Source of the DNA: Phytoactinopolyspora halotolerans
GTDB lineage: Bacteria; Actinomycetota; Actinomycetes; Jiangellales; Jiangellaceae
DNA: 64,000 nucleotides
Direction: 5' to 3'
NCBI RefSeq assembly: GCF_010550675.1
Contig: NZ_JAAGOA010000016.1
Span: 62,001 to 126,000 of the forward strand
Under the pieces are notes generated by a model. It was not told the origin of the DNA, made no database searches, and was given only the letters and a program-made list of their open reading frames with translations. How positions within the stretch are numbered: the first letter of the stretch is position 1; every line of letters starts with the position of its first letter. The position numbers and the translations under genes were made by a program. Positions 46,804 to 64,000 of this stretch are shown piece after piece.

Positions 46804-48099
46804 TCACGCTACGGTTCGAGGACGCCGAAAGCTCCTCGCCGGCCCCTCCACGTGGGCACCTACAAGGTCGGCTATCCAGGTGGCGTGGTCCCGTAGCGAG
46901 TCGGGTACCACCACCTCATTAGCAGCGCGATGAAATGCGTCCGGAATCGCAGCGCGAAGCTCACGCGTACGTTCGCGAGCTTCTTCTGCGGGTATGCCTA
47001 GACTGCGCGCCACGATCATCCAATCCTTCTCAGACACTCGACGCATCTCCCACGAATCGCCGATCTTCATCGCGGACCTGTGATCCGCTCCCTGGTCATA
47101 GGGGAGAACGGTAGCGACGTCATAGAGCGGGCCCAGTTGAGCGCGGGATCCTGCGCCGATGAGCATCGAGTAGTTCTTGGCGTGGGCATCGGTGGCGCCG
47201 ATGGCAACGTTGAAGAACAAGGCATCGAAGAAGCGTTTCGCGCTCACCTGTCGGTCCGGAGCAGCAAGCCCGCTGAAGAGATGAGCGATCTCCCGGATCC
47301 CAGGACCCCCGTCGGATTGGTACTTCATGCTGGGATGCACGGAGAGTGCCTGACAGAGATCCTCTTGGTGTGCTCTTCTCCAGCGGCCGTCTTTAAACGT
47401 GCGATCGTACCTCTGGCAAATGAGGACCTCGACGTCACCGGTGGTGATTATCTCCGTTCTCGCCGCCGCAAGTCCGATCAGCTGGGCAGCTCGAAGGCAG
47501 AGATGCTCGTTGACATGATGGTGCTCGAGCCCAGGTATAGATGGCTTCAAGATGTGTGTCGTGGGCGTCGAGTCCCGAGGAACGCCCCAGTGCCCGTCGT
47601 CGCTACGGAAGAGAGCTACCTTGCTCTGAGCTCCCGCCAGGCTCCACCGACCAGTATCGCGGCCGGGATTCCAGTCCGCCGGGTGACTGGCCACATCGCG
47701 CAAGACCGCGGTTATGTCGTCATCTGTGAGCCACTCGATATCACCCTGCCGCGTCGCGGCGTCCAGGGATGGCTCACCTTCGGGAAGGATCTGAACCGCG
47801 CCGGCAGCGTCATGACCGACGTGAGCGAGTAGGGCAAAAGGATTACGGGGCGACACACCAAACTGGCGTCCCCATCGTTCAAGCGTCGGTTCGCTATCAG
47901 GCAGCAAGCCGGCTATGAACGCGTTCACAGCCTTGGGAGGGTGACTGGAGCGCCCGAGAGGGAGCGACAGCGAAAGCGGGACTGCGCCGGGTGGACGGTA
48001 GTCGTCGTAGTAGGTGAAGCCGACCTTGCCGGCGCTGTTCTGCGTCAATGTCCCTGCAGGAATGCCATCCAAGTAGACCGCCAGCCTTCGCTCAGCCAT
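46804..48099 (-). CDS. hipA: HipA-family serine/threonine kinase toxin
   Basis: 431 residues. N-terminal HipA_N fold (RRLAVYLDGIPAGTLTQNSA, VPLSLSLPLGRSS, FIAGLLPDSEPTLERWGRQF). The kinase core has the P-loop-like SLAGAQSKVALF, HVNEHLCLRAAQLIGL, VLICQRYDRTFKD, HQEDLCQALSV and the catalytic loop NVAIGATDAHAKNYSMLI. Full-length HipA toxins phosphorylate aminoacyl-tRNA synthetases and cause dormancy. The ATG at 48099 fits the family start and overlaps the antitoxin gene by 8 bp. All key kinase segments look intact. Confidence 0.9.
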   Translation of the reverse strand: MAERRLAVYLDGIPAGTLTQNSAGKVGFTYYDDYRPPGAVPLSLSLPLGRSSHPPKAVNAFIAGLLPDSEPTLERWGRQFGVSPRNPFALLAHVGHDAAGAVQILPEGEPSLDAATRQGDIEWLTDDDITAVLRDVASHPADWNPGRDTGRWSLAGAQSKVALFRSDDGHWGVPRDSTPTTHILKPSIPGLEHHHVNEHLCLRAAQLIGLAAARTEIITTGDVEVLICQRYDRTFKDGRWRRAHQEDLCQALSVHPSMKYQSDGGPGIREIAHLFSGLAAPDRQVSAKRFFDALFFNVAIGATDAHAKNYSMLIGAGSRAQLGPLYDVATVLPYDQGADHRSAMKIGDSWEMRRVSEKDWMIVARSLGIPAEEARERTRELRAAIPDAFHRAANEVVVPDSLRDHATWIADLVGAHVEGPARSFRRPRTVA

Positions 48100-48376
48100 G
48101 GGATCCTCCATCAGTGAGGTCGTCGAACAGCTCGTCGAAGGCCTCCACGTCAGCCTGACTTCCGCCTTCGTCGATCTCAACCGTGACAGTCACACGCACC
48201 GCGGAGAGCGCGTCCAGGAGAAGCTGGGCTTCCACGCGTGGGTGTCCGCCTTCGAGCCGAACCACCCACTCTCGGGAGACACCGACGGACCCGGCCAACT
48301 GAGCCTGCGTCATGCCTCGGCGCGTACGTGCTTCCCGTAGGACGGCCACAAGATCACGAACTGTACGAGCTTGCAT
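48092..48376 (-). CDS. hipB: HipB-like XRE antitoxin
   Basis: 94 residues. XRE helix-turn-helix RRGMTQAQLAGSVGVSREWV near residues 20-39, then a family-like tail ending in an acidic segment (FDELFDDLTDGG). The ATG at 48376 follows TTGGAGG. It precedes hipA with an 8-bp overlap. Three copies of a 16-bp site lie directly upstream, as expected for an autorepressor. Confidence 0.9.
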   Translation of the reverse strand: MQARTVRDLVAVLREARTRRGMTQAQLAGSVGVSREWVVRLEGGHPRVEAQLLLDALSAVRVTVTVEIDEGGSQADVEAFDELFDDLTDGGSHG

Positions 48377-48577: not shown

Positions 48578-49693
48578 TCACACCGTCCCGTCCTCCATGC
48601 CCTCGTGGGTCTCAGCGTGGTCGACGAGCTCGAACGCGGTGACGGCCGGTGAGTGACGCACCTCCGCGACGACCTGCCCCGGGTCGAGTACGTCGGCGGC
48701 ATAGCCGACACCTCGCCCGACGCCGCCTTCCACGACGGCCTGCACGGCCAGCGCACCGACCGTGGCGATCAGCCGGTAGGCGTCACCGGTGCGCAACGCC
48801 GCGGTGCGGACTACAGACCGCCCGCCGACGACGCCGGTCATCCGGAACACCAGGGCGTAGTAGGGCTCACGGCCGAACAGGTCGAGCTCCGCCGCGCGGG
48901 TGAGCTCGGCGACGGCACGGTCCATCTCCTCCCCCGCGACCGGCCGGCTGCGCATCCGGGTGAAGGTCGTGACCAGCCGGTCGCCGACGAAGACGTTCCA
49001 GAAATCCATGGTGTCGGCGCCGATCGCGGTGGCCAGCCGCGCGGACTCTCCGCTGAAGAACGGATGCGCGCTGACCCGATCCGGGAAGAACGGCACCTCG
49101 ACATCCTTCTGCGGACGGAGCACCTTCTCCGCCAGCCGGCCGTTCCGCCAGCCCGCAAGCGCGTGCCCGTAGTCGTCTCCGTCGTCGGTATGCATGCTCA
49201 AGATCATGTCGGTGGCGCTGGACGGGCTGCACCGTTCGAGCCCGCCGATATAGGTGGACAGCGAGTCGACCTTGTCCATCTCCGTGGCCATCCAGCGCGG
49301 GATCAGGCTGGACAACCCCGGCAACATGCCGGCGGAGAGCACGACCGTTCCGGCGCAGTCGGCCGAGGTCAGCCGCCGGTGCACCGGCTCGTCACCGGAG
49401 ACGTCGACGTAGGCGGCGCCGGCCGCGATCGCCGCGCGGGCAAGCGTGTCCAGGATCAGGTACGACGGACCGGCGCAGTTGAGCACCGCCGTGCAGCCGT
49501 CGCAGAAGCGCGCCACGCTCTCAGGATCGTCGAGGTCGAACGGGAACGGCTGCGCCTCCGGTGTCTCGTCGGCGATCTGCCGCAGCGCATCCACCCGCCG
49601 GCCGCCCAGCCGCACCGGACCGATGCCCATGCGGGTCAGCTCGCCGACGGCCCAACGGCCGACGCTGCCGCTCGCGCCGGCGACGGCGATCAT
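48578..49693 (-). CDS. Saccharopine-dehydrogenase-like NAD(P)-binding reductase of the NRPS operon
   Basis: 371 residues. Rossmann start MIAVAGASGSVGRWAVGELT, then the VARFCDGCTAVLNCAGPSYL and AYVDVSGDEPVHRRLTSADC segments typical of saccharopine dehydrogenase-like proteins and trans-acting enoyl reductases. The ATG at 49693 overlaps the methyltransferase stop (ATGA). Last gene of the operon. It could reduce a biosynthetic intermediate or the released product; the substrate is unknown. After its stop there is no clear terminator before the LacI remnant. Confidence 0.75.
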   Translation of the reverse strand: MIAVAGASGSVGRWAVGELTRMGIGPVRLGGRRVDALRQIADETPEAQPFPFDLDDPESVARFCDGCTAVLNCAGPSYLILDTLARAAIAAGAAYVDVSGDEPVHRRLTSADCAGTVVLSAGMLPGLSSLIPRWMATEMDKVDSLSTYIGGLERCSPSSATDMILSMHTDDGDDYGHALAGWRNGRLAEKVLRPQKDVEVPFFPDRVSAHPFFSGESARLATAIGADTMDFWNVFVGDRLVTTFTRMRSRPVAGEEMDRAVAELTRAAELDLFGREPYYALVFRMTGVVGGRSVVRTAALRTGDAYRLIATVGALAVQAVVEGGVGRGVGYAADVLDPGQVVAEVRHSPAVTAFELVDHAETHEGMEDGTV

Positions 49694-50403
49694 GTGGACG
49701 CCCGGAGCACTCCGGCCTGCATGGTGAGCTGCTCGGCGACCATGCCGGTCTCGCGCGCCAGGTCTTCCAGGCCGAACGTGTGCCACTGGCTGGTGCCGTG
49801 CACGGTCCGGTCGGCGCCCGGTCCGCCGGTGATGTGCCAGGTCGAGTTGAGCACCATCAGGTCGTCGTCGCCGGGTTCGCCCTGCAACGTCGCCTCGTAG
49901 AGGTGGTCGCCGATGCGCTCCTTGGCGTACGGCATCGGCGGCAGCTGCTGGGGCTTGCTGATCGGGAGCAGTTCCACCGCGACCGGCGCGCCGGGTGCGA
50001 GCCGGGGCAGCAGCCGGTCCCACAGCTGCATGCGCTCCTCCCGGTCGAGCATGCCGATCACACCGAAGAGCACGACAGCGGAGAGCCGGTCCGGCAGCGG
50101 CATCGTCTGGGCCGGCTCGGGGAGGATGGTGACCCGCCGGCGCAGGTCGTCGTCGCCGGCCACCTGGTGGGTGAGCACGGTGCGCATCACCAGGTCCGGT
50201 TCGGTGGCGATGATGCGGGCTCCGGGCAGTGCGTCGGCGATGATCCGCACCGTCCGTCCGGTGCCGGCGCCCACGTCGAGTACGGGACCGGCCGTCGCGT
50301 CGACGTCGCCGAGCACGGAGCGCAGCGCGTCGCCGCCCTCGGAGTGGGTGCGGGTGACCAGGTCGTAGAACTCGACCGCCGGAGAGGGATTCAGCTTGCT
50401 CAT
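49690..50403 (-). CDS. SAM-dependent class I methyltransferase of the NRPS operon
   Basis: 237 residues. SAM motif I VLDVGAGTGRTVRIIADALP near residue 44, post-I IIATEPDLVM, and motif III-like LPRLAPGAPVAVELLPIS. No signal or membrane segment. The ATG at 50403 has AAAGG upstream. Its stop overlaps the reductase start. A likely tailoring O-, N- or C-methyltransferase for the thiazoline product, in addition to the MT domain inside NRPS2. Confidence 0.8.
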   Translation of the reverse strand: MSKLNPSPAVEFYDLVTRTHSEGGDALRSVLGDVDATAGPVLDVGAGTGRTVRIIADALPGARIIATEPDLVMRTVLTHQVAGDDDLRRRVTILPEPAQTMPLPDRLSAVVLFGVIGMLDREERMQLWDRLLPRLAPGAPVAVELLPISKPQQLPPMPYAKERIGDHLYEATLQGEPGDDDLMVLNSTWHITGGPGADRTVHGTSQWHTFGLEDLARETGMVAEQLTMQAGVLRAST

Positions 50404-50443
50404 GTCGATGCCTTTCAGGATGGGGACCTCGGTGATGGGACGT

Positions 50444-51214
50444 CTACGGTGTGGACAGCGGAGGGACGGATGCCGCGCCGAGCGTGGCCGCGACCAGGTC
50501 GGTGACGGCGCGGCGTCGATCCACCAGGTAGAAGTGGTCGCCGGGGAACTCGTGCAGCCGGAAGGCACGGTCGGTGTAGGACGCCCAGTCCCCCGCCTCG
50601 GCCACGGTCAGCTCACCGTCGTCGCTCCCGATCAGCGCGGTGATCGGCACCGGAAGCACGGTCCGCTCGCCCGGCCGGTAGCGCTCGATCAGCCGGTAAT
50701 CGTTACGCACGATCGGCAGCACCAGCGCGGCCAATTCGGGTTCGGAGAGCAGGTCGGCGTTGGCCGGGCTGAGCCGCAGCAGTTCCGTGCCCAGCCGGTC
50801 ATCATCCCAGGTATGGACGGTGCCGCCGCGGTGGTGAACCGGCGGCTGACGCCCGGAGACGAACAGGTGTGCCGGCGCGGGCAGCCCTCTCCGGTCCAGG
50901 AGCGCCGCCACCTCGTAGGCGATAGCGCCGCCCATGCTGTGTCCGAACAGCGCGTACCGGCGCCGGGTCAGCGGCGCGATCTCCGCGGCGATCCGGTCCA
51001 CCGCCGTCGCCATGTCGTCGACGAACGGTTCGCCGAACCGGTCCTCCCGGCCGGGGTACTGCACGGTGTGTACCTCGATCCGCTCGCCGACCAGCTGCGG
51101 CCATGCCCGGTACGCGCTGGCCGAACCGCCGGCGTGCGGCAGGCAGATCAGCCGGGTGGCGGCGTCGGGACGCGGCTGCAGGCAGCGCAGCCAGCGTGTG
51201 GTCGGTGTCTTCAT
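50444..51214 (-). CDS. Type II thioesterase (PchC/YbtT-like)
   Basis: 256 residues. Alpha/beta hydrolase with RLICLPHAGGSASAYRAWPQ near residue 20, the nucleophile motif ALFGHSMGGAIAYEVA near 91, and the catalytic His in FPGDHFYLVDRRRAV near 230. Such enzymes hydrolyse wrongly loaded groups from carrier domains. The ATG at 51214 overlaps the imide reductase stop (ATGA). Here the active-site residue is the usual Ser. Confidence 0.9.
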   Translation of the reverse strand: MKTPTTRWLRCLQPRPDAATRLICLPHAGGSASAYRAWPQLVGERIEVHTVQYPGREDRFGEPFVDDMATAVDRIAAEIAPLTRRRYALFGHSMGGAIAYEVAALLDRRGLPAPAHLFVSGRQPPVHHRGGTVHTWDDDRLGTELLRLSPANADLLSEPELAALVLPIVRNDYRLIERYRPGERTVLPVPITALIGSDDGELTVAEAGDWASYTDRAFRLHEFPGDHFYLVDRRRAVTDLVAATLGAASVPPLSTP

Positions 51215-52455
51215 CGCAACAGCTCCAGTAGGGGCACGGGTTCCGGCTCGGGCGGGTCGATCAACGTCACCGGACCGAGCCGGTCGGACAGCTCCTGCCA
51301 CAGGGTGGCGATGCTCAGCGCCCACTGCGACGCCTGCGCCGCCGCCGACGACGCCGGCCCCGGCCCTGGCGCTCGCGCGGGCGCGGCGTCGGCCGGCCCG
51401 GCGACGTCCGCGCGACGCTCGTCGATGTCCCGGTGCAACTCGACCAGCGCCGCAGCCACGGCGTCCGGCCAGATCCGGTCGAAGACCTCCCGGAACGTCG
51501 GCGCCGCGTGAGTACCGACGTGCTCGGTCGCGGCGACGTCCAGCCGTTCGGTGCCGGGCCCGTCGAGGACGAGCCGGCCGTCGCCGTCCCGGGTGCTGTG
51601 CAGGCGCGGACTCCACAGCACCGGGCCGTGGGTGTCCACCAGCGCCAGCACACCCGCTTCGAAGCCGATGCTGATCCGGTGCAGCAGCAGGGCGTGGTTG
51701 TCCGGGTCGGACGGGTTGAGCTGGTTCTGCACCCGCAGCGTCAGCGGCACCCCGCCGATCACGCCGTGCAGGCTCGTGTACGGCGCCGGCGCCGCCGCCA
51801 GGGCGGCCAGATCGGGCGGCAGCGATGCCGGCTCGCCGAACCGCCACGGCCGGACCCCGCCGACGGTGCGGGCGACGACGTCCAGCAGCGAGTACAGCAC
51901 CTGGACGCCGCAGGCCGCGTCGATGAAGAGCGGCGGCTGCCGGCGGCGCAGGATCTCGGCGGCGGAGGTGAACCGGCGGATCGGCTCGACGTGCGGGTAG
52001 AGGGTGTTCACCCGGTACCGCACGCCGTGTTCGCGGGCGGTGCGCAGGCAGTCGGCCAGCTCCTCCGGGTGCAGCGGATGCTCGTGCAGGACGTGGATGC
52101 CGCGTTCCAGCAGCCGTTGCGCCAGCTGCGCACCGTCGCCGGCCCCGGTCCCCGACGGCACGGCGACGCACGCGATGTCGATGTCGCCGGGCAGCTCCTC
52201 GACGGAGGTGTAGCAGGGCACCCCGTAACGCGCGGCGACCTTCCGGGAGGCGTCGCTGCCGCGGGACAGGACGCCGGCCAAGTCCAGGTCCGCGGAAGCG
52301 TGCACCGCGCGCAGGTGGATGCGGCCGAAGCCGGTTCCACAGACCAGCACTCGCAGGCGCCGCCGCCCGGTCGCGCCGTCGTCTTCGCGCATCCCGTTGT
52401 CTTCGCTCGCCCCGTTCTCTTCGTTCACTCCGCTGTCTTCGCCCACCCCGCTCAC
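51211..52455 (-). CDS. Thiazolinyl imide reductase (PchG/YbtU/Irp3-like)
   Basis: 414 residues from a GTG whose GTGA overlaps the NRPS2 stop; an in-frame ATG at 52392 is the alternative start. After a repetitive acidic N-terminal extension the Gfo/Idh/MocA-type Rossmann begins RVLVCGTGFGRIHLRAVHAS. ACVAVPSGTGAGDGAQLAQR, HVLHEHPLHPEELADCL and RYRVNTLYPHVEPIRRF follow. This matches PchG/YbtU, which reduce one carrier-bound thiazoline to thiazolidine in pyochelin and yersiniabactin assembly. Its presence directly after NRPS2 strongly supports a thiazoline-peptide pathway. The extension is not part of the known fold. Confidence 0.85.
   Translation of the reverse strand: MSGVGEDSGVNEENGASEDNGMREDDGATGRRRLRVLVCGTGFGRIHLRAVHASADLDLAGVLSRGSDASRKVAARYGVPCYTSVEELPGDIDIACVAVPSGTGAGDGAQLAQRLLERGIHVLHEHPLHPEELADCLRTAREHGVRYRVNTLYPHVEPIRRFTSAAEILRRRQPPLFIDAACGVQVLYSLLDVVARTVGGVRPWRFGEPASLPPDLAALAAAPAPYTSLHGVIGGVPLTLRVQNQLNPSDPDNHALLLHRISIGFEAGVLALVDTHGPVLWSPRLHSTRDGDGRLVLDGPGTERLDVAATEHVGTHAAPTFREVFDRIWPDAVAAALVELHRDIDERRADVAGPADAAPARAPGPGPASSAAAQASQWALSIATLWQELSDRLGPVTLIDPPEPEPVPLLELLR
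52383..52454 (-). repeat. 18-nt tandem repeat (four copies) at the start of the reductase gene
   Basis: Four head-to-tail degenerate 18-nt units (52383-52400, 52401-52418, 52419-52436, 52437-52454) each begin CTTCG on the plus strand. They encode an acidic six-residue repeat (E-D/E-N/S-G-x-x) in the N-terminal extension. They fill the space between the GTGA overlap and the folded domain. Confidence 0.8.
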
Positions 52456-55400
52456 CGCCGGACCCCGGTGAGTGCGGCGGCGATCGTGGGCGCGTTCGCC
52501 GCGGCCATGCAGCTGAAGTGATCGCCGGGAAGGTCGTGCACGCTCAGCTCGCCCACGCAGATCCGCTCCCAGAACCGGGCGACGTCGGCCCGGCTCCCCG
52601 GCAGCAGGGTCGACGATCCGCTGTTGCGCAGCAGCGTCGTCGGCCCGGCATACGGGTCGGGGCGATGCCGGGCGACGGCGAGCATGCTCTGGCGGAACAC
52701 GTCGAAGTAGCGGGTGAACTCGTCGAGGGTGTAACTGCCGGAGTTGTACGCGCCGTCGGCCGTCGCCACCCGGTGGATGGCCGCCAGTCGCTCGGGCCGC
52801 TCGGCGCCGGCGAACTCTCGGAACGCCGCACCGACGGACGCGTCTTCGCCATCCAGCCCGGTCAAGCAGCCGGGAGGGAGCCGCCCCGGGGAGCGCTGGA
52901 GAATGGACCGCACCGCGCGGCCGATCTGGTCGGCGTCCGCCGGCAGGCCCAGCGCGTCCAGGGCGGCGCCCATCGACTGCGCGAACAGGTACTCCACCAT
53001 GAGCTCGTCCTCGACCGCCGGCGGCTGATAGGAGCTGATCACGGTCAGTCCGTCGACGGTGGCCCCGGCCTCGGTCAGCGCCCGGGCCACCTCGGTGGCG
53101 AGCAGGCCACCCAGGCAGTATCCGACCACGGTGAACCTCGTGCCGTGCTCGAGCAGGTCGCGTGCATAGCCGGCGGCGAGCCGGTCGATCACCGCCTCCG
53201 GCGGCAGCGCGAGGTAGTGGTCGAGGTCGGTCATCTCGACGCCGAGAAGTCCGTGACCGCGATCGGCCCGCAGCCGGGACAGCAGCGGCTGGTATGGCTG
53301 CAGCGTCCCCGTCCCGGCGTGCACCAGCACGAACGTCGGCGCGTCGTCCGGCGCGGGGGCGAGAACGACGACGGGCGAACGCTTGGCGCCGGCCTCCGTG
53401 CCCGCGTCTCCGGCCGAGCTCAGGTATCCGACCAGCCCGCGGACGGTCGGGTCGTGCAGCATCTGCCGGAGCAGAACCGCCCAGTCCAGGCCGCCCGCCT
53501 CCGGTACCTGCTCGCGCAGCCGTCCCAACATCCGCGACAGCAGCAGCGAGTCCCCGCCGAGCGAGTAGAAGTCCTGGTCCCGGCCGACGACCTCGACGCC
53601 GAGCAGCTCCGACCACAACACGGCCACCCGCCGCTCCAGATCGTCCGCCGCGGGATCGGCGCCGGCCGGCAGCGGTGCGGCTCCGGCGCCCGGCCCAGGA
53701 CCGGGCGACCAGGCGGCCAGCGCCGAACGGTCCAGCTTGCCGTTGGCCGAGCGGGGCAGCGCGTCCACCAGCTGGATCGACTGGGGCACCATGTAGTCCG
53801 GCAGCTGCGTGGCCAGGTGTGCCAGCACGGCGTCGGGCGTGGTGTAGGCCCGGGCGTCGTCGAACCGGGCGAGAAAGACGCCCTGGCCGGCCAGTGCTAG
53901 CGCGCTGTTCTCGGGCGGCACGCAGACCGCGTCGGCTGCCCCGGCCCGGGCCAGCATCTGCAGCCACTGGTGCCGGGTGAAGAACGACTGACCGGTGCGG
54001 GCACGCTCGTCGTCGAAATCCTCCCGGGTGAACTCGAACTCCATCGACACCAGCTGGGAGTAGTTGTGCCGCCGGGTGGGCTCGATGAAGATCAGCCAGC
54101 CGCCCGGGGCCAGCACGTCGCGCAGCCGGGCCAGCACGTCGTCCGCGTGCCGGGAGTTGTGCAGCACGTTGGCACACAGCACCACGTCGGCGGAATTGGG
54201 CAGGTAGCCCTGCTCCCGCAGACCGGCGTTGATGTCGAACCGCCCGTACCGCATCCACGGATATCGATCGAAGGTGCTGCGCGCCTCGCTCAGGAAGAAC
54301 TCCGAGACGTCGGTGAACAGGTAGTCCGGCTCCAGATCCGCCACGGCGGCGACGACGTCGGCGCTGGTCCCGGCGATCCCGGCGCCCACCTCGAGGATCC
54401 GCAGCGGACCGGCGTCCGCGCGCCCGGCGTGCAGCTCGGCCAGCCGACGGACCGCGGCCGCGACCACCCCGTTCATGCTGCGGCCCACCTGGTTCTCCCG
54501 GTACACCGCGTGTGCGGCGCCGAACTCGCCGTCGGGGAAGAGGATGTCTCGGACGTCGAACTCGCCGCGCAACATCTCACCGAGCCGGCCGGTGCAGGTG
54601 CGCACGAACCGCAGCAGTTCGGCACCGTACGCGGCGCGGCGCTCCAGCTCGTCGACGCGTTCCCAGGCGGCGGATCGACCGGCGTCGTCGGCCGGCGCCA
54701 GGTCGCGGTACGTCCCGTCGTCGTCCAGGCGCAGCGCACCGGCGTCCACGAGTGCGTCGAGCCAGCGTCGCAGCAGCCGCCGGTGCCGGTCCGACACGCG
54801 GACGGCCGCCGCGATCTCGTCCGCGGTATGCGCCGCGCCTGGGGTAGTGAACAACCCGTCGGCGCGCAGCTGGGCTGCCATGGCCTGCACGGCCACCTCG
54901 TCGACACCCTGCATGAGATCGGTGAACGTTTCCGCCTCGATGGCGTTCTCGGCCGCCGTCCAGGCGGCCGTCGCTGCGTCGATGACCTGCGCCGCGGCCG
55001 CCCCGCCCGCGCCGTCGTCGGTGCCGGGATCACCCTGAGCCAGCTCGGCGAACCCGGTCAGCCGCCGCGACTCGCGCTCGCCGTCGGCGAGCACCGCGGC
55101 GTCGGCCACCGCCGGGTGCGCACGCAGCACCGCCTCGATCTCGCCGAGCTCCACCCGGTGGCCCCGGATCTTGACCTGCGTGTCCTCCCGGCCGAGAAAC
55201 TCGATGGTGCCGTCGGGCAGGTAGCGGCCCAGGTCGCCGGTGCGGTAGAGCCGTTCGCCGGTGGCCGGGCAGGTGATGAAACGCCGGCTGGTCCGCTCCG
55301 GGTCGCCGAGGTAGCCCTGCGCCAGCCCGGCCCCGCCGATGTACAGCTCCCCGGGCACCCAGTCGGGCCGGTCCTGCAGGGCGTCGTCGAGGACGCGGAA

Positions 55401-58058
55401 GCTCTGGTTGGTCAGCGGGGTCCCGTACGGGATGCTGCGCCACTCCGGCCGGACCTCTGCGATCGGGTACCAGATCGACCAGATCGCCGCCTCGGTGGCG
55501 CCGCCCAGACTCACCACCCGCAGATCCGGCACGGTGGCCCGGACCCGGTCCGGCAGGGCGACGGGAATCCAGTCGCCGGAGAGCAGCGCCAGCCGCAGCG
55601 TGCCGAGCCGGTCCGATCCGGCCGCGCTGTCCGCGTAGTCCTGGAGCATCTGCAGCTGCGACGGCACGGTGTTCCAGAGTGTGACGCCGTGCCGGTCGAT
55701 CAGCTCGGCCCAATGCGACGGGTCGCCGCGCCGTTCCGGGTCGGGAAGGACGACGGTGCCGCCGGCAGCGAGCACGCCGAAGATGTCATAGACGGACAGG
55801 TCGAACCCGAGGTTGACCACGCTGAGAACCCGGTCATCCGGGCCGATGTCGAACCGGGCGTTGATGTCCTCGATGGTGTTGGCGGCGGCGCGGTGACTGA
55901 TCACCACGCCCTTGGGCTCGCCGGTCGAGCCGGACGTGTAGATGACATAGGCGGGGTCGTCCGGCGACCCGGGCGGTGGGGAGGGGGAATTCCCGGCCTC
56001 GCCCGCGGCCAGATCGTCGCAGGGCTCCTCACAGGCCGATGCCCGAGCCTTCCCTGGCCGGGAAATTCCCCCTCCCCACTTTCCCTGGTCGCCTTGCGCG
56101 GATTCAATGTGAGGGCTGGCGATGTCGTCGACCGCGATCGACCGTACCTCTGCGGGCAGCTGATCTGCGGTTCCGCTCCAGGACTGGGTCAGCGCGAACC
56201 GCACCCCGGCGGAGCCGAGGATACGGTCCCGGCGGGCGGCGGGCTGCCCCGGATCGACCGGCACGTAAACCGCGCCCGCCAGCAGCACCGCGAGCACACC
56301 GACTATCTGGTCTGCGCCCTTGACCATGCAGATCGCCACCCGCTCGCCCGGCCGGCAGCCGGCGCCGCGCAGCCGTCGCGCCGCGGCCCGGGCGCGGGCG
56401 GTGAGCTCGGCGTAGGTCATAGTGGTCCGGGTGTCGATGACGGCGACGCGCTGCGGCGTCGTGTCCGCCCGGGCGAGCACCGGATCGTGCAGAAGATGGT
56501 CGGGAAGCGCCGCCGCGGTGTCGTTGACCTCGGACCGGCGCGCGCGCTGTTCCGGCGGCAGCGTGACCGGCGCCGCGTCGTCCCATGCCTCGTCGGTCGT
56601 GGCCAGCCTGCGGACCAGGTCGGCGAACGAGGAGAAGGCGTCGGCGGCGAGCCCGTCCGGGAACACGTCGTCGCGGACGTCCCAGGCCAGCAGCACCCCG
56701 TCGGCGTTCTCGACCACCTGGCAGTCGAGCCAGACCTGCGGCGTCTGGGTGACGCCGTGCACGAACCGGCCCAGTGGCGCCTCGGTGGCCGCTCCGGTGC
56801 CGATGGTGCTGGTGAACACCACCGGCATCAGCGCGGGACTGCCGTGGCGGCGGGTCAGCTCGGCCAGCACGTCCAACCCGGAGAAGAGCCGGTGATCGAG
56901 GTCATCGAAGAGCTGGCCGCTGACCGTGGCCACCCGGCCGGCGAAGGTGGGTGCGGCGTCCAGGTCGACGGCCAACAGGTTGACCGAGGTGAAGTCGCCG
57001 ACAACGGACCCGATCCGCTCGTGCAGCGGCAGCCGGTTGAACACCGGCAGGTTGAGGGTGAACCGCCGGTGCCGGCTCCATCGGCCGACCGTCTCCGCGT
57101 AGGCGGTGAGCAGGACGGCCGACGCGGTGACGCCGTTCCGCTCGGCCCGCTTGCGCAGCCCGGCCCATTCCGTCGCGGACAGCTGCCGGTCCAGCCGCCG
57201 GAACCGCACCGGCCCGGCACCCGGTGCCGGCTCCTCGCGGCCGGTGCCGGGCAGCTCGGGCGCCGGAGGCAGGTCGTCGATCCTGTCCAGCCAGTACGAC
57301 CGGTCCCGCTGGAACCTGGGCCCGGCGCGCAGCGACCGCTCCGCAAGCACGTAGTCGCGGAACGTGACGTCGAGCGGCGGTGGTGTGTGGCCGCGCAGTA
57401 GCGCGTCCAGCTCGCCGAGCAGCAGCTGCACGCTGGCCGAGTCGACCACGATCAGCTCCACCAGCAGGTGCAGGAGCGTCGCCTGATCGGTGACGGTGGT
57501 ACGCAGCGCGAACAGCGGCCACGTCTCGGTGGAGCCCGGCGTGCCGGTCAGCTCGCGCCGGACCGCGTCCAGGTGGGTCTCCACCGCGTCCGGACTCGCG
57601 CCGCGCAGGTCGGTGACCGGGATCCGGTACTCGTCCACCGCGGGCAGCACGCGCTGGTGACCGTCGCCGTGCACCACCGCGCGCAGCATGTCGTGCCGCC
57701 GGACGAGCTGGTTCCAGGCCCGCTCCAGGTCGTCCGGCGATACCGCGCCGTCGTAGGCGATATCCAGGTAACCGGTGCAGGCCACGCCGCCGTAGTCGAA
57801 GACCTGGTGCCGACCGAGCTGATAGGCGGACTGCATCTGCGTCAGCGGGAACGGCTCGTGCCGGCCGGCCGGGTCGGAGACCAGCTCAGCGGTGTCGGCG
57901 TCGAGGTAGGCCAGCAGGTCCGCCTTGTGCTCGACCAGCGTGGCCTTGCGCTCCTCGGTGAGGACGCCGCGCGGCGCCCGGTACCGGAGCCGGCCGTCGT
58001 CGGCCCATAGCCGGACTCCGAGCTGCTCGAACTCGGTGACCAGATCGCTGACGTTCAT
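52452..58058 (-). CDS. NRPS2: TubC-Cy-A(Cys)-MT-PCP-TE (PchF-like)
   Basis: 1,868 residues. Order by residue: TubC-type docking domain (1-52), cyclization-type condensation domain (66-490), adenylation domain with core YTSGSTGEPKG near 704, SAM methyltransferase inserted in the A domain (about 1000-1390; ILEVGAGIAG near 1218), end of A (NGKLDRS near 1443), PCP (LGGDSLL, Ser 1504) and thioesterase (1560-1868). Specificity positions read D-L-Y-N-L-S-L-I-W, the cysteine code. Three oddities: the Cy motif reads ELIVVDSAS instead of DxxxxDxxS (E201), the TE elbow is GYCLGG (Cys 1648 for Ser), and about 48 extra residues near 635-690 come from an inverted-repeat insertion. The domain order equals PchF of pyochelin synthesis. 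ATG overlaps the NRPS1 stop. Confidence 0.9.
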   Translation of the reverse strand: MNVSDLVTEFEQLGVRLWADDGRLRYRAPRGVLTEERKATLVEHKADLLAYLDADTAELVSDPAGRHEPFPLTQMQSAYQLGRHQVFDYGGVACTGYLDIAYDGAVSPDDLERAWNQLVRRHDMLRAVVHGDGHQRVLPAVDEYRIPVTDLRGASPDAVETHLDAVRRELTGTPGSTETWPLFALRTTVTDQATLLHLLVELIVVDSASVQLLLGELDALLRGHTPPPLDVTFRDYVLAERSLRAGPRFQRDRSYWLDRIDDLPPAPELPGTGREEPAPGAGPVRFRRLDRQLSATEWAGLRKRAERNGVTASAVLLTAYAETVGRWSRHRRFTLNLPVFNRLPLHERIGSVVGDFTSVNLLAVDLDAAPTFAGRVATVSGQLFDDLDHRLFSGLDVLAELTRRHGSPALMPVVFTSTIGTGAATEAPLGRFVHGVTQTPQVWLDCQVVENADGVLLAWDVRDDVFPDGLAADAFSSFADLVRRLATTDEAWDDAAPVTLPPEQRARRSEVNDTAAALPDHLLHDPVLARADTTPQRVAVIDTRTTMTYAELTARARAAARRLRGAGCRPGERVAICMVKGADQIVGVLAVLLAGAVYVPVDPGQPAARRDRILGSAGVRFALTQSWSGTADQLPAEVRSIAVDDIASPHIESAQGDQGKWGGGISRPGKARASACEEPCDDLAAGEAGNSPSPPPGSPDDPAYVIYTSGSTGEPKGVVISHRAAANTIEDINARFDIGPDDRVLSVVNLGFDLSVYDIFGVLAAGGTVVLPDPERRGDPSHWAELIDRHGVTLWNTVPSQLQMLQDYADSAAGSDRLGTLRLALLSGDWIPVALPDRVRATVPDLRVVSLGGATEAAIWSIWYPIAEVRPEWRSIPYGTPLTNQSFRVLDDALQDRPDWVPGELYIGGAGLAQGYLGDPERTSRRFITCPATGERLYRTGDLGRYLPDGTIEFLGREDTQVKIRGHRVELGEIEAVLRAHPAVADAAVLADGERESRRLTGFAELAQGDPGTDDGAGGAAAAQVIDAATAAWTAAENAIEAETFTDLMQGVDEVAVQAMAAQLRADGLFTTPGAAHTADEIAAAVRVSDRHRRLLRRWLDALVDAGALRLDDDGTYRDLAPADDAGRSAAWERVDELERRAAYGAELLRFVRTCTGRLGEMLRGEFDVRDILFPDGEFGAAHAVYRENQVGRSMNGVVAAAVRRLAELHAGRADAGPLRILEVGAGIAGTSADVVAAVADLEPDYLFTDVSEFFLSEARSTFDRYPWMRYGRFDINAGLREQGYLPNSADVVLCANVLHNSRHADDVLARLRDVLAPGGWLIFIEPTRRHNYSQLVSMEFEFTREDFDDERARTGQSFFTRHQWLQMLARAGAADAVCVPPENSALALAGQGVFLARFDDARAYTTPDAVLAHLATQLPDYMVPQSIQLVDALPRSANGKLDRSALAAWSPGPGPGAGAAPLPAGADPAADDLERRVAVLWSELLGVEVVGRDQDFYSLGGDSLLLSRMLGRLREQVPEAGGLDWAVLLRQMLHDPTVRGLVGYLSSAGDAGTEAGAKRSPVVVLAPAPDDAPTFVLVHAGTGTLQPYQPLLSRLRADRGHGLLGVEMTDLDHYLALPPEAVIDRLAAGYARDLLEHGTRFTVVGYCLGGLLATEVARALTEAGATVDGLTVISSYQPPAVEDELMVEYLFAQSMGAALDALGLPADADQIGRAVRSILQRSPGRLPPGCLTGLDGEDASVGAAFREFAGAERPERLAAIHRVATADGAYNSGSYTLDEFTRYFDVFRQSMLAVARHRPDPYAGPTTLLRNSGSSTLLPGSRADVARFWERICVGELSVHDLPGDHFSCMAAANAPTIAAALTGVRR
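55976..56079. mobile_element. MITE-like inverted-repeat insertion within the NRPS2 adenylation domain
   Basis: About 104 bp bounded by inverted repeats: 55976-55998 and 56056-56079, identical when inverted except for one extra base. Each arm contains GTGGGGAGGGGGAATT at its outer end. Between the arms are 57 bp of other sequence. The element is read in frame through the A domain as a Gly/Pro/Ser-rich insertion before the core motif, without a stop. No transposase is present. I cannot identify target-site duplications with confidence. Confidence 0.6.
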
Positions 58059-61000
58059 ATGATGCCGTCCTCCGTGCTCTCGGCTGCCTTGAGCTGGTCA
58101 TCGATGCTGCGGGCCAGGTCGGCGACGGTCGGGGCGGCGAAGAAGGCCCGCAACGACACGTCGACGCCGTAGCGCTTGACCGCGCTGGAGACCATCCGGG
58201 TTCCGGCCAGCGAGTCACCGCCCAGGGCGAAGAAGTTGTCCAGCCGGCCTGCCGGGGCCTGCCCCAGCACGTCACGCCAGAGGTCGGCCAGCTCCCGTTC
58301 CAGCGCGGTGGCCGGCGGCTCGGAGGAATGCGGCACGGTGGACGCGTGCTCCGCCGGAGGCGGCTCGCCGCGTGCTGACCCGCCTCGCGACGCGGCGTCC
58401 GTCCCCTCGTCGGAGAGCGCATCGTCGGGCACCGCGGCGGCGACCCCGGGCGGCAGCCCGGCCGCCAGCAGCGCCCAGTCCGTGTCGATGAGCCGCCGCA
58501 GCGTGGCGTCGTAGGCGGCGAACATCTCGTCGACCATGCCGTCGGGGAACAGCTCGTCGACGGAGTCCCAGCTCAGCAGGACGCCGTCGGCCAGCTCGAC
58601 GGCCTGGTGGTCGAGCCACACCTGCGGCGTCTGCGACGACGCGTGGTCGGGCCAGCGCACCGCCCTCGCCAGGCCGTCGTCGACGCCGAGCATGCTGGTG
58701 AACACCACCGGCACCGCCTCGGCCAGCCGCACGTCGCGGCGGGCCAGGTCTCGCAGGATGCGCACGCCGGACAGCTCCCGATGGTCCAGATCCCGCCACA
58801 CCTGCTGCTGGAGCCGTCGGGCGCGGGCGAGCCAGCTGTCGTCCTCGTCGAGTCGGTGTCCCACCAGCAGCAGCGACGTGAAGTCGCCGAGCACCTTGTC
58901 GATGTCGGGGTGGACGGGCCGGCGGTCGAACAGGGTGAGGTTGACCGTCAGCTCCCGTTGACCGCTCCAGGCCGCCAGTACCTCCGCGTAGCAGGCCAGC
59001 AGCACCGCCGACGGGGTGAGGTCGTGCCGCCTGGCCTGGCCCACGAGGATCCGCCAGCTCGCGGCGTCGATGTGCCGCTGACGGCGGCGGAAGCGCGGCG
59101 CGGTGATCTGCTCCGGCCGGACGCGGACCGGCAGGCGAGGACCCGGTGGCAGCTCCGGCACCCGTGTCCGCCAGTACTCCTCGGCGGCGGCCAGCCGCTC
59201 CGGGTCAGGCCGGGACTGGAGCACGTAGTCGCGGAAGGACAGACCGATCGGCGGCAACTCGGCATCCGGGTCCGCGTAGAGACGGTCCCATTCGGCGAAC
59301 AGGGTCAGCATGCTCAGCCCGTCGACGATCATGGTGTCGAAGACCACGGCGACCCGGGCCCGGCCGTCGCCGTAGCGCACCACCCGGATGTCGAACAGCG
59401 GCCAGGCCGACGCATCGTGAGTGGCGCGGCTCATCTCCTCGCGGATCCCGGTCAGCTCCGCCTCCACCTGGTCGTCGTCCAGGTCCGGACCGAGTTCGAC
59501 GACCGGGATGCGGTAACGCGGAACGTCGCGCTGAACGTACTGGGTGCCGTCGGCGGCGACGACCGCGCGCAGCATCTCGTGCCGCGCCAGCAGCCGGTTC
59601 CACGCCTCCTCCAGCCGCCCGACATCGAGGTCGGTGTACTCGCGCTCGGTGGCGAACAGCGCCGCGATGCCGCCCAGGACGAAGTCGTCCCGGCGGCCGA
59701 TCCAGTACGCCTGCTGCACGTCGGTCAGCGGGAACGGCTCGTGCCGATGCTCGGGATCCGCCCGGATCTCCGGCGCGGTCTCGGCCCGGCCCGGCGTGAG
59801 CGTCGCGGCGAATCCGGCCAGCGTCGGGGACGCGAACAGGTTCGCCAACCGCGCACCCGTCAGTCCTGCCGCCCGGAGCCGGCTCACCAGGCGGGCCGCC
59901 AGCAGGCTGTCCCCGCCCAGCGCGAAGAACCCGTCCTCGCGGCCGACCCGGTCCACGTCGAGCAGCTCCATCCAAAGCTTCGCCACCGCGATCTCGGCCG
60001 CACCGACGGGTGATTCGAACGAGGGGGGTTCCTCGCCGGCTCTGGGATCCTCGCCGGCTTGGAGATCCCCGTCGTGCCCGGCGTTCCCAGCGTCATTGAC
60101 GCGACGAGTCGTCTGTGTCGGCCCGGGTTGTCCGCCCACGACCGCGGGGACGACGGCCGTCTCCCAGTCCGCCTCCGCCAGGCCGCGTAGCGCCGCCTGG
60201 TACTCGGCGAACATGTTGTCGATCAGGCCCGCGGGGAACAGCTCGTCCACCGAGTCCCAGCTCAGCAGCAGCTCACCGGAGCGTTCGATCACCTGGTGGT
60301 CGAGCCACACCTGCGGTGTCCGGGTCCGGGTGTGATCGGGCCACCGGATGGACTCGGCGAGCGTGTCGTCGACGCCGAGCATGCTGGTGAACACCACCGG
60401 CATCGCTTCCACGGTGGCGTCGTGCCGCCGGGCGAGCTCCCGCAGCACGTGGATCCCCGAGACGTCGCGGTGGTCCAGGTCCCGCCACATCTGCTCCTGC
60501 AACCGCCGCCCGCGCGCGAGCCAGCTCTCCCCCGGCTCGGGCCGGTAGGCCGCGAGCAGCAGCGACGTGAAGTCGCCGACCACCCGGTCGATGTCCGGGT
60601 GGATCTGCTGCCGATCGAACAGGGTGAGGTTGACCGTCAGCTCCGGCTGCTCGCTCCATCGGCCGATCAGGTCGGCATAACAGGCCAGCACCACCACTGA
60701 GGGGGTGAGGCCGTGCCGCCTGGCCTGCTCGGTGATCCGCTGCCAGGTCGAGCGGTCCAGCCGCGCATCGCGACGTCGGAAGTGCGGAGCGTCGAGCCCG
60801 CCCGGGTCGGTCCGCAGCGGCAGCCGGGGCGCAGGCGGCAGGTCCGCCATCCGGTCCCGCCAGTAGTCGAGCGCCCGCTCGACGGCGGCCGGCGCCGGGC
60901 GCGCCTGCAGCAGGTAATCGCGGAAGGACAGACCGATCGGCGGCAGGTCGGCATCGAGGTCCGCGTAGAGCCGGTCCCACTCGCCGAACAGGGTGAGGAT

Positions 61001-64000
61001 GCTCAGCCCGTCGACGATCAGGTTGTCCAGCACGGTGCAGAGACGGGCCCGGCCGTCGCCGTACCGCACCACCCGGATGTCGAACAGCGGCCAGGCCGAC
61101 GCGTCGAGTGTCGCCCGGCTCATCTGCTCGCGGACCGCTGCCAGCTCGGCCTCCGTGACGTCGCCGGGCAGGCCCGGGTCGAGATCGACGACGCGGATGC
61201 GGAAGGGCGGGACCGCGCGGAGGATGCGCTGGGTCCCGTCGGCGTCCACGACGGCGCGCAGCATCTCGTGCCTCGCCACCAGTCGGTTCCACGCCTCCTC
61301 CAGCCGCCCGACGTCGAGGTCGGTGTGCTCGTACTCGACGTAGAACTGCGCGGCCACGCCGCCGAGCCGGAGCGCGGGGTCGCGTCCGATCCAATAGGCC
61401 TGCTGCACGTCGGTCAGCGGGAACGGCTCATGCCGATGCTCTGGATCGGGCCGGATGGCCGGTGCGTTCTTGACCTGTCCGGGCGCGAGCGTGGCGGCGA
61501 ATCCGGCCAGCGTCGGCGACAGGAACAGGTTCGCCAGCTCCGCACCGGCGATCCCGGCCGCCGGCAGCCGGCTCACCAGCTGGGTGGCCAGCAGGCTGTC
61601 CCCGCCCAGCGCGAAGAACCCGTCGGTGCGGCCGACCCGGTCCACGCCCAGCAGCTCGGCCCACAGCCCGGCCAGCGCCTCCTCCAGCGGTCCAGACGGC
61701 GGTTCGAACCGCGCCCCGGCTGCGTTGGTCTCCCCGTCGCGGTCCCCGACGCCGGTGCCGTCCCTGCCCCCGCCCGCCGCGCCGGTGCGGCCCGCGCGGC
61801 GGGTCAGTTCGGCCCGGTCGACCTTGCCGTTCGCGGTGAGCGGGAAGGCGTCGACGGCAACGATCCTGCCCGGGACGGCGTGGGCCGGCAGCCGCTGGGC
61901 CAGAAAGCCCGGCAGCACCTCGGCGACACCCTCGTCCGCCTGCACAAAAGCGGCCAGCCGCTTGCGATCCCGCTCGCCCGGAGCGACGACCACCGCCTGC
62001 GCCACCGCCGGGTGGGAGGCCAGCGCGGCCTCCACCTCGCCCAGCTCGATCCGGTGCCCCCGGACCTTCACCTGGGTGTCGGCCCGGCCGAGGAACTCCA
62101 GTGTCCCGTCCGGCCAGTACCGGCCGAGGTCGCCGGTCCGGTACCAGCGCTGCCCGTCGTGCTCGACGAACTTCTCCGCCGTCCGTTCCGGGTCGCCCCG
62201 ATATCCTTCGGCCACCCCGGTGCCGCCGATCCACAGCTCACCCGGCACCCAGTCCGGGCAGTCGCGACCGCGCCCGTCCACCACCCGGAAGCACTGGTTC
62301 CGCAGCGGGTAGCCGTACGGAACCGACGACCACGCCGGATCGACCCGCTCCACCTCGAACGCGTTGGACCAGATCGACGCCTCGGTCGCTCCGCCCAGGG
62401 CGACGAACCGGCAGCCCGGCGCGAGGGTGCGCACCCGCCCCGGAAGGTCCAGGCCCACCCAGTCACCGGACACCATCGCCAGCCGCAGCGACTCCGGCAG
62501 CCCAGTGTCGGTCTCGGCGACGGTGACCAGCATGTCCAGCAGCGCCGGCACCGTGTTCCAGACGGTGACGCGGTACCGGTGCGCCAGCTCCACCCACCGC
62601 TGCGCGTCGCGCCGCTCGTCCTCACCGATCAGCACCACAGCCCCGCCGGCGGCCAGCAGCCCGAACATGTCGTAGACCGAGAGATCGAAGTCGGCCGCCG
62701 ACACCGCGAGCACCCGGTCGTCCGGCCCGATGCCGAACCGCGTGTTCACGTCGTCGATCGTGTTCACCGCGGCGCGATGGGCGATCTGCACGCCCTTGGG
62801 TTCGCCCGTCGACCCCGAGGTGAAGATGGTGTAGGCCAGCTGTGCCGGGTCGACGGGGACCGGTTCGGCCAGCGGCGCGGCGTCGGCGGCGGCCGTGAGA
62901 TCGTCCAGCACCAGCACCGCCCCGGAGCTCTGGACCAGCCGCTCTCGTCGCAGCGGCGGCAGGTCCACGCCCACCGGGACGTACATCCCTCCGGCCGCCA
63001 GCACGCCCAGCAACCCCGCCACCTGGCCCGGGCCCTTCGGCAGGCTCACCGCCACCGCGTCACCGGGCCGCACACCGCGGTCCACCAGCCACGTCGCCAC
63101 CCGCAGCGCCCATGCGGCCAGTTCCCGATAGGACAGCTCGCCACCGTCCCACACCAGCGCCGGCCGGTCCGGCGCCTGGCCGGCACGCACGAAGAACCCG
63201 CCGTGCAGCAGCCCACCGCCCGGCGCGGACTCCGGCGCCGGGCCGGCCGTCGCGTTCACCCGGTCGCGTACCGCCGACTGCCCGGCCGGGAGCACCGCCG
63301 GCGCCGGCGAGTCCCACTCCGTTCCGGTCAGCCACTCGACCAGCTCCACGTAGGCGGCGAACATCGCGTCGGCCATCCCGGGCGGGAACAGCTCGTCGAC
63401 CGAGTCCCAGTCGATCGCCAGGCCGGCACGGGTTTGGGAGACCTTCAGGTCCAGCCACACCTGCGGCGTCTGGGTCACGCCGTAGACCGGCGCCGGGAAC
63501 GCCTCGGACAGCTCCAGCGAGGCGTCGTCGCCGACGCCGAGGACGCTGGTGAACACCACCGGCATCGCCTCCACGGTCGCGTCGTGGCGGCGCGCCAGCT
63601 CCCGCAGCACCCGCACCCCGGACACCTCCCGGTGGTCCAGGTCCCGCCACAGCCGCTCCTGCACCCGGCGGGCGGTGCCGAGGAAGCTCTCGCCGGTCCC
63701 GGCGCGGCATCCGACCAGAAGCAGCAACGAGAAGTCGCCGATCACCTGGTTGACGTCCGGATGCACGTCGTCCCGGTCGAACAGGGTCAGGTTCACGGTC
63801 AGGTCCGGCTGGCCGCTCCACGCTGCCAGCACCTCGGCGTATGCGGTGAGCAGCACGGCGGTGGGGGTGATCCCGTGCCGGCGGGCCCGCTCCGCGAGCA
63901 GCTCCCACCGCTGGGCGTCGACGAGAGCGTGCGAGCGGCGGAAGCGCGGCGCCGCCACCTGGTCGGGTTCGACGGCCAGCGGCAGCCGGGGCGCCGGCGG
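58055..64000 (-). CDS. NRPS1: Cy-A(Cys)-PCP-Cy-PCP-Cy-PCP (5' end outside window)
   Basis: The frame is open to the window edge (1,981 codons visible), so the N-terminus, possibly an aryl carrier domain, is missing. Visible order: C-terminal half of Cy1, A domain (core FTSGSTGEPKG), PCP1 (Ser codon 61595-61597), Cy2 with DNLIVDGLS (61001-61027), PCP2 (Ser 59906-59908), Cy3 with DTMIVDGLS (59312-59338) and PCP3 (Ser 58211-58213). Both complete Cy motifs satisfy DxxxxDxxS. The A-domain code read by eye, D-L-Y-N-M-S-L-I-W, is one residue from the cysteine code, so this A domain probably loads several PCPs, as in yersiniabactin HMWP2. The Cy2-PCP2 and Cy3-PCP3 units repeat every 1,689-1,695 bp. 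The stop overlaps the NRPS2 start (ATGA). Confidence 0.9.
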   Translation of the reverse strand, partial: PPAPRLPLAVEPDQVAAPRFRRSHALVDAQRWELLAERARRHGITPTAVLLTAYAEVLAAWSGQPDLTVNLTLFDRDDVHPDVNQVIGDFSLLLLVGCRAGTGESFLGTARRVQERLWRDLDHREVSGVRVLRELARRHDATVEAMPVVFTSVLGVGDDASLELSEAFPAPVYGVTQTPQVWLDLKVSQTRAGLAIDWDSVDELFPPGMADAMFAAYVELVEWLTGTEWDSPAPAVLPAGQSAVRDRVNATAGPAPESAPGGGLLHGGFFVRAGQAPDRPALVWDGGELSYRELAAWALRVATWLVDRGVRPGDAVAVSLPKGPGQVAGLLGVLAAGGMYVPVGVDLPPLRRERLVQSSGAVLVLDDLTAAADAAPLAEPVPVDPAQLAYTIFTSGSTGEPKGVQIAHRAAVNTIDDVNTRFGIGPDDRVLAVSAADFDLSVYDMFGLLAAGGAVVLIGEDERRDAQRWVELAHRYRVTVWNTVPALLDMLVTVAETDTGLPESLRLAMVSGDWVGLDLPGRVRTLAPGCRFVALGGATEASIWSNAFEVERVDPAWSSVPYGYPLRNQCFRVVDGRGRDCPDWVPGELWIGGTGVAEGYRGDPERTAEKFVEHDGQRWYRTGDLGRYWPDGTLEFLGRADTQVKVRGHRIELGEVEAALASHPAVAQAVVVAPGERDRKRLAAFVQADEGVAEVLPGFLAQRLPAHAVPGRIVAVDAFPLTANGKVDRAELTRRAGRTGAAGGGRDGTGVGDRDGETNAAGARFEPPSGPLEEALAGLWAELLGVDRVGRTDGFFALGGDSLLATQLVSRLPAAGIAGAELANLFLSPTLAGFAATLAPGQVKNAPAIRPDPEHRHEPFPLTDVQQAYWIGRDPALRLGGVAAQFYVEYEHTDLDVGRLEEAWNRLVARHEMLRAVVDADGTQRILRAVPPFRIRVVDLDPGLPGDVTEAELAAVREQMSRATLDASAWPLFDIRVVRYGDGRARLCTVLDNLIVDGLSILTLFGEWDRLYADLDADLPPIGLSFRDYLLQARPAPAAVERALDYWRDRMADLPPAPRLPLRTDPGGLDAPHFRRRDARLDRSTWQRITEQARRHGLTPSVVVLACYADLIGRWSEQPELTVNLTLFDRQQIHPDIDRVVGDFTSLLLAAYRPEPGESWLARGRRLQEQMWRDLDHRDVSGIHVLRELARRHDATVEAMPVVFTSMLGVDDTLAESIRWPDHTRTRTPQVWLDHQVIERSGELLLSWDSVDELFPAGLIDNMFAEYQAALRGLAEADWETAVVPAVVGGQPGPTQTTRRVNDAGNAGHDGDLQAGEDPRAGEEPPSFESPVGAAEIAVAKLWMELLDVDRVGREDGFFALGGDSLLAARLVSRLRAAGLTGARLANLFASPTLAGFAATLTPGRAETAPEIRADPEHRHEPFPLTDVQQAYWIGRRDDFVLGGIAALFATEREYTDLDVGRLEEAWNRLLARHEMLRAVVAADGTQYVQRDVPRYRIPVVELGPDLDDDQVEAELTGIREEMSRATHDASAWPLFDIRVVRYGDGRARVAVVFDTMIVDGLSMLTLFAEWDRLYADPDAELPPIGLSFRDYVLQSRPDPERLAAAEEYWRTRVPELPPGPRLPVRVRPEQITAPRFRRRQRHIDAASWRILVGQARRHDLTPSAVLLACYAEVLAAWSGQRELTVNLTLFDRRPVHPDIDKVLGDFTSLLLVGHRLDEDDSWLARARRLQQQVWRDLDHRELSGVRILRDLARRDVRLAEAVPVVFTSMLGVDDGLARAVRWPDHASSQTPQVWLDHQAVELADGVLLSWDSVDELFPDGMVDEMFAAYDATLRRLIDTDWALLAAGLPPGVAAAVPDDALSDEGTDAASRGGSARGEPPPAEHASTVPHSSEPPATALERELADLWRDVLGQAPAGRLDNFFALGGDSLAGTRMVSSAVKRYGVDVSLRAFFAAPTVADLARSIDDQLKAAESTEDGII

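Follow-up and report, generated by a model that had tools for sequence, protein, structure and literature searches.

The right-hand end of a 64,000-nucleotide stretch of the Phytoactinopolyspora halotolerans genome (hereafter the window; G000:C8:62001-126000 of a 7.3 Mb genome) carries a set of NRPS genes whose Cy-PCP units partly lack A domains. The question that this locus raises is whether it specifies a new metallophore pathway, as a first-pass annotation proposed, or a variant of a known one, and which metal its product might serve.

Gene content and extent of the cluster

The NRPS1 gene is cut by the right edge of the window, and we traced it further in the same contig, which places the cluster at window positions 48578-64000, continuing to about 80056 in the same numbering (Table 1). 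Across the entire contig the NRPS1 gene encodes a protein of about 3,373 aa with the order ArCP-Cy1-A1-PCP1-Cy2-A2-PCP2-Cy3-PCP3-Cy4-PCP4; as the full protein adds ArCP-Cy1-A1-PCP1 outside the window, NRPS1 and NRPS2 together contain five Cy and three A domains. The first-pass annotation had read the end of NRPS1 as Cy-A-PCP-Cy-PCP-Cy-PCP and the second NRPS as Cy-A-MT-PCP-TE, both of which we recover, the latter with a docking domain in front, but its four Cy domains in series become five because Cy1 lies past the window edge. The downstream imide reductase, type II thioesterase, methyltransferase and saccharopine-dehydrogenase-like gene are likewise as described, and the genes are joined by stop/start overlaps with the sole exception of the type II thioesterase and the methyltransferase, which are separated by about 30 nt. 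A HipA-like kinase gene (Couple_hipA and HipA_C; window 46804-48180) adjoins the left end of the cluster.

Table 1. Features of the cluster and of its promoter (window numbering unless another reference is given)
Feature	Position	Strand	Remarks
Saccharopine-dehydrogenase-like oxidoreductase	48578..49693	-	position of SrbE, MchE; family also includes EqbM
Free-standing SAM methyltransferase	49690..50412	-	position of SrbF/G, MchF/G
Type II thioesterase	50444..51211	-	PF00975
Thiazolinyl imide reductase	51211..52455	-	Irp3/YbtU/PchG type; TIGR01761 331 bits, cut-off 188.8; start codon approximate
NRPS2	52452..58058	-	TubC_N docking-Cy5-A3-MT-PCP5-TE; 1868 aa; start overlaps NRPS1 stop
TE	52455..53378	-	Cys nucleophile, GYCLGG
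PCP5	53421..53630	-	in NRPS2
Methyltransferase domain	53859..55031	-	inserted in A3, PchF-like position
A3	55059..56513	-	specificity code DLYNLSLIW (Cys)
Cy5	56553..57893	-	ELIVVDSAS / PVVFTS / TPQVWLDCQ
NRPS1, 3' part	58055..64000	-	gene extends to about 68176 (G000:C8:130176)
PCP4	58094..58312	-	divergent, 42-44% to PCP2/3; at NRPS1/NRPS2 junction
Cy4	58442..59782	-	DTMIVDGLS / PVVFTS / TPQVWLDHQ; 66% identity to Cy3; no A domain after it
PCP3	59816..60034	-	LGGDS; 76% identity to PCP2
Cy3	60140..61471	-	DNLIVDGLS / PVVFTS / TPQVWLDHQ; no A domain after it
PCP2	61508..61726	-	LGGDS
A2	61802..63220	-	specificity code DLYNMSLIW (Cys)
Cy2, C-terminal part	63284..64000	-	DSIALDGRS motif beyond window
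IdeR/DmdR-type iron box TTAGGTTAGGTTAACCTAA	68212-68230 (L008:6212-6230)		divergent promoter, just right of window
Zur-like sequence TGATAATCCTTTCTA	about 68283-68297 (L008:6283-6297)		near aryl-AMP ligase start; 3 mismatches; conserved in P. endophytica
Divergent operon	68322-80056		right of NRPS1
Other IdeR-type site	G000:C17:18995-19013 (L138:8996-9014)		5' end of Peripla_BP_2 protein gene

Genes for an aryl-AMP ligase and a salicylate synthase stand in the divergent operon together with those for an SBP_bac_5 protein, permeases, a double ABC ATPase and a pair of fused ABC transporters, so that the aryl starter functions and transporters that had been expected to the right of position 64000 are indeed found there. 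The salicylate synthase scores 437.8 bits against TIGR03494, above the cut-off of 325. The aryl-AMP ligase has its best match in TIGR02275, and given that the score is under the DHB cut-off of that model, salicyl is preferred by context as its substrate. The importer formed by the SBP_bac_5 protein, permeases and ATPase is of the Opp/Nik type (of its two permeases, the first was called by eye from its translation), while the first fused ABC transporter is similar in sequence to YbtPQ and IrtA. No cytochrome P450 comparable to SrbH or CYP105N1 and no PKS domains were seen among the cluster genes, and no VOC proteins in the cluster. Taken together, the locus is a complete cluster for a small metallophore, predicted to be of the salicylate-polyazoline type.

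Catalytic motifs and substrate specificity

All five Cy domains retain the Cy motif region together with the PVVFTS and QVWLD motifs, and every PCP has its serine. In Cy5 the first Asp of DxxxxDxxS, which is essential in HMWP2 Cy1, is replaced by Glu (window 57432-57458), a variant that among the terminal Cy domains compared is shared only by P. endophytica, Nonomuraea longispora and the related cluster G051. The last of these, which has four modules, also carries Ser in place of Cys as the TE nucleophile (GYSVGG; L101/L102).

Specificity codes were taken from an alignment at the standard code positions. For both A2 and A3 the code read in this manner is the standard one for cysteine, in keeping with the earlier assignment of both visible A domains. 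The code of A1, which lies outside the window, is DLYSMGLIH, with Gly at the sixth and His at the ninth position, and this variant is common to most actinobacterial family members whose code was read. The first A domain of the sorangibactin system was predicted to select Cys, but labelling revealed Ser (PMC10127202); for that of mupirochelin prediction programs disagreed (Cys or Thr), while the MS/MS data pointed to Thr (PMC10080011). From these two precedents we infer that A1 probably selects Ser or Thr through a family-specific variant code, rather than Cys, so that the product would probably contain an aryl-oxazoline followed by sulfur rings. The earlier proposal of an acyl or aryl starter followed by up to four cysteine-derived rings agrees with Cy2 to Cy5. 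When the Polyangium order was searched for a sorangibactin-like myxobacterial cluster with which to compare the A1 code, none with this tailoring set came up. In Streptomyces muensis and S. lincolnensis (L013 and L014) A1 is interrupted by some 300 aa, about the length of a methyltransferase domain, an insertion that A1 of the window organism lacks.

Relationship to known metallophore families

The cluster displays the traits of coelibactin/sorangibactin-type systems throughout: NRPS1 starts with ArCP-Cy-A-PCP-Cy-A-PCP; a separate terminal NRPS has the order Cy-A-MT-PCP-TE with a Cys nucleophile, as reported for sorangibactin and coelibactin (PMC10127202); a salicylate synthase is accompanied by an aryl-AMP ligase; and an Irp3-type reductase, a saccharopine-dehydrogenase-like protein and a free methyltransferase complete the set. 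Coelibactin-like clusters can be without a CYP105N1 homologue (PMC3430247), and hence the missing P450 does not strictly define membership. Accordingly, the cluster belongs with those of coelibactin, sorangibactin and mupirochelin, and probably with transvalencin A. Given the one-for-one gene match to sorangibactin and mupirochelin, P450 and VOC proteins excepted, and the products transvalencin A and the uniformides, this kind of system was already known; instead of a candidate new metallophore pathway we therefore see a known metallophore family in a variant whose line is lengthened and whose regulation is apparently by iron. What is new in it, as judged from the sequence, is the presence of two consecutive A-less Cy-PCP units derived from tandem duplication of a PCP-Cy segment, and we found no characterised cluster with the same domain order.

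Tantazoles and thiangazole had been offered as the closest structures, but transvalencin A and the uniformides, with an aryl group and four such rings, are closer. The tantazole/thiangazole pathway is a PKS-NRPS hybrid that forms alpha-methyl-cysteine rings; a pathway of that type does not fit the salicylate start and the lack of PKS domains among the cluster genes. Tetroazolemycin, an oxazoline/thiazolidine dimer rather than five rings in series, was likewise rejected as the product.

Distribution and origin of the tandem A-less units

Among the family clusters that we read, two A-less Cy-PCP units in a row, with five Cy domains in total, occur only in two Phytoactinopolyspora species, P. halotolerans and P. 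endophytica. By end-to-end matching no other tandem A-less pair was detected in 394 sampled genomes of the class, in 17 other genomes of the order or in 151 genomes of the Nonomuraea family; a scan of about 85,000 species genomes, which reaches close relatives only, recovered such a pair only in P. endophytica. A common arrangement resembles that of sorangibactin, with three Cy domains (G267, G180, G111, G384, G237, G346, G299 and others). Four Cy domains with one A-less unit are seen in Nonomuraea longispora (L012), Streptomyces muensis (L013) and S. lincolnensis (L014), and four with an A domain in every module in G051.

The similarity of PCP3 to PCP2 and of Cy4 to Cy3, together with the divergence of PCP4 (Table 1), points to PCP-Cy as the duplicated unit. 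In a tree of 57 Cy domains the extra internal domains fall within the Cy2-type clade, with separate duplications in Streptomyces and in G051 (Cy2 with Cy3 in each), and Cy3 and Cy4 of Phytoactinopolyspora group with Cy3 of Nonomuraea. By their domain coordinates only a short linker, like that in other A-less units, lies between Cy3 and PCP3 and between Cy4 and PCP4, and we rejected the idea of A-domain relics there. The cluster is present in two of five Phytoactinopolyspora genomes and in none of 17 other genomes of the order; this patchy presence, with the nearest outside relative in Nonomuraea, suggests its horizontal acquisition.

Substitutions between the two Phytoactinopolyspora species are dominated by third codon positions in every cluster gene, NRPS1 showing 325, 304 and 921 differences at the first, second and third positions, respectively. 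Pseudogenisation of NRPS1 and NRPS2 in P. endophytica was considered and rejected, all apparent frame breaks being runs of N in the assembly. Given both the third-position excess and the nature of these breaks, the tandem units are, by the pattern of codon substitution, kept under purifying selection in the two species. These observations bear on the possibility that one A-less unit is skipped or inactive, leaving four rings as in transvalencin A and the uniformides, the longest related products that we found. Although relatives with four Cy domains exist, we consider this unlikely, given the intact catalytic motifs and PCP serines of both A-less units and their joint retention in two species under purifying selection.

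The divergent promoter

The promoter between NRPS1 and the divergent operon contains a predicted 19-bp IdeR operator with one mismatch to TTAGGTTAGSCTAACCTAA (consensus: PMC8464063), and this is so in both Phytoactinopolyspora clusters. For a genome scan the pattern was relaxed at position 11, a choice made after the site had been seen, the quoted single mismatch being that to the canonical pattern. With this one central base relaxed and up to two mismatches allowed, only one other IdeR-type site is found across the 7.3 Mb, and the Peripla_BP_2 protein whose gene carries it at the 5' end probably binds an iron-siderophore complex. The organism also encodes two DtxR/IdeR-type regulators.

At the matching promoter of 13 other actinobacterial members there is instead a Zur-like box with at most two mismatches to TGANAATNATTNTCA, its score being reached in 0 of 300 shuffles for each member, even if these members are phylogenetically non-independent and do not represent 13 independent events. 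Such a box is absent from five further actinobacterial loci, some of which have a different gene order. In the coelibactin system Zur was bound at the SCO7681/7682 promoter, with the consensus tGaNNatSatNNtCa (PMC5472717). No clear Zur box was found at either Phytoactinopolyspora promoter; the best candidate, TGATAATCCTTTCTA, attains a score that is reached in about 3% of shuffles, and might possibly be a relic Zur site.

These findings invite the scenario of an actinobacterial zincophore family of which one genus made an iron siderophore, through tandem PCP-Cy duplication that extended the ligand to five rings, coupled with the exchange of a Zur for an IdeR operator in the divergent promoter that both operons share. 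We put this forward tentatively, as a conjecture somewhat short of an even chance. A different reading is that the product, whether a zincophore or a ligand for both zinc and iron, came under iron regulation by happenstance and retains the ancestral zinc function. The Zur-like boxes of the 13 relatives, the weak Zur-like sequence at the organism's own promoter and the isolation of transvalencin A as a zinc complex are consistent with it, but the near-perfect iron box in both Phytoactinopolyspora species and the want of a clear Zur box at their promoter make it rather improbable.

Predicted product and biosynthetic route

The reading that we favour, with a little more confidence than doubt, is that of a salicylate-primed line of the coelibactin/sorangibactin/transvalencin type with five heterocyclisation steps, whose predicted product is a siderophore that bears a salicyl cap and, after it, an unbroken row of five azoline/azolidine rings. 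Salicylate would be made by the salicylate synthase and loaded onto the ArCP by the aryl-AMP ligase, whereupon Cy1 would couple it to the residue chosen by A1, more probably Ser/Thr than Cys, with an aryl-oxazoline as the outcome. Cy2, Cy3 and Cy4 would each add and cyclise one cysteine. In keeping with the first-pass annotation, which pointed to HMWP2, charging of the A-less units must come from another A domain, and we propose that A2 charges PCP3 and PCP4 in addition to PCP2; there is a precedent in equibactin, where the single A domain of EqbE is predicted to charge three PCPs (PMC3672683). NRPS2 (Cy5-A3-MT) would add the last cysteine, and the Irp3-type reductase and methyltransferase would convert at least one thiazoline to an N-methyl-thiazolidine, in line with the earlier suggestion of a reduced and N-methylated last ring, which we regard as probable. 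Release would fall to the Cys-type TE, with homocysteine as a possible acceptor, as is the case for sorangibactin. The product would thus consist of an aryl group and a row of five five-membered rings, of which four contain sulfur; it would probably be produced when iron is scarce and reimported by the encoded importers. For the free acid with one ring reduced and N-methylated, the calculated [M+H]+ is 578.1019, 564.0862 or 580.0634 with Thr, Ser or Cys, respectively, as first residue, and 677.1161, 663.1005 or 679.0776 when homocysteine thiolactone is included; applied by hand to sorangibactin A, this way of calculating returns its published formula.

Some points count against the favoured reading: colinearity often fails in this family, the MS/MS structure of mupirochelin having one residue more than its modules predict (PMC10080011); the A1 assignment depends on a code that software reads as Cys or Thr in relatives; and Cy5 has Glu for the first Asp of its motif. 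Modules could also be used iteratively here, or extra reduction and methylation could occur, so that rings would be more numerous, or reduced in another pattern, than expected from the modules. Such reuse has been proposed for mupirochelin, sorangibactin has two N-methyl-thiazolidines with one Irp3-type reductase, and a free methyltransferase is present in this cluster; yet there would be less need to iterate once modules had already been duplicated, and we hold this to be quite improbable. Within the favoured five-ring route the reductase may nonetheless act on more than one ring, by analogy with the two N-methyl-thiazolidines of sorangibactin. The ligand may still serve zinc, since close actinobacterial relatives look zinc-regulated. 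That ring number may matter has a structural argument in its favour, in that coelibactin has been predicted not to be a tight binder of Fe(III), its carboxylate being too distant from the phenol (PMC3430247); taken by itself, this reasoning does not lead one to expect that a longer line prefers iron.

The family offers a natural series of three, four and five ring-forming modules in clusters that are otherwise much alike, permitting direct tests of the charging of A-less modules, of growth by PCP-Cy duplication and of ring number as a determinant of metal preference. That the lineage whose operator changed from zinc type to iron type is also the one with the longest line ties ligand length to the choice of metal in a concrete way that experiments can test.

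Comparison with characterised systems and close relatives

The sorangibactin (srb) cluster of Sorangiineae MSr11367 (PMC10127202) corresponds one-for-one in SrbB, C, D, E, F/G, I and K, sharing the salicylate synthase, salicyl ligase, NRPS pair ending in Cy-A-MT-PCP-TE(Cys), Irp3-type reductase, saccharopine-dehydrogenase-like protein and free methyltransferase, but it has three Cy domains, all with A domains, and in addition a P450, VOC proteins and a LysR regulator. Coelibactin (SCO7681-7692) of S. coelicolor shares the two-NRPS organization, metal transport genes, ABC pair and an actinobacterial host, whereas it is a Zur-regulated putative zincophore with the P450 CYP105N1 and three predicted rings, whose product was never isolated (PMC3430247, PMC5472717). 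Mupirochelin (mch) of Pseudomonas sp. NCIMB 10586 has the same tailoring set (saccharopine dehydrogenase, Irp3-type reductase, methyltransferases and TE) and is itself iron-repressed, binding both iron and zinc; it differs in having fewer modules, an extra ring ascribed to iteration, and a P450 and VOC proteins (PMC10080011). Transvalencin A and the uniformides of Nocardia (PMC11364655), compared by product, likewise have an aryl group followed by oxygen/sulfur-nitrogen five-membered rings in series, but with four rings, and transvalencin A and uniformide A were isolated as zinc complexes. Equibactin (PMC3672683) and yersiniabactin (HMWP2) provide instances of several PCPs charged by one Cys A domain and of Cy-PCP units without A domains, but with at most one such unit in a row per subunit and with other downstream modules. 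The clusters of Nonomuraea longispora, S. muensis and S. lincolnensis are of the same operon kind and contain one A-less Cy-PCP unit, differing from that of Phytoactinopolyspora in their four Cy domains and in bearing a Zur-like rather than an iron box.
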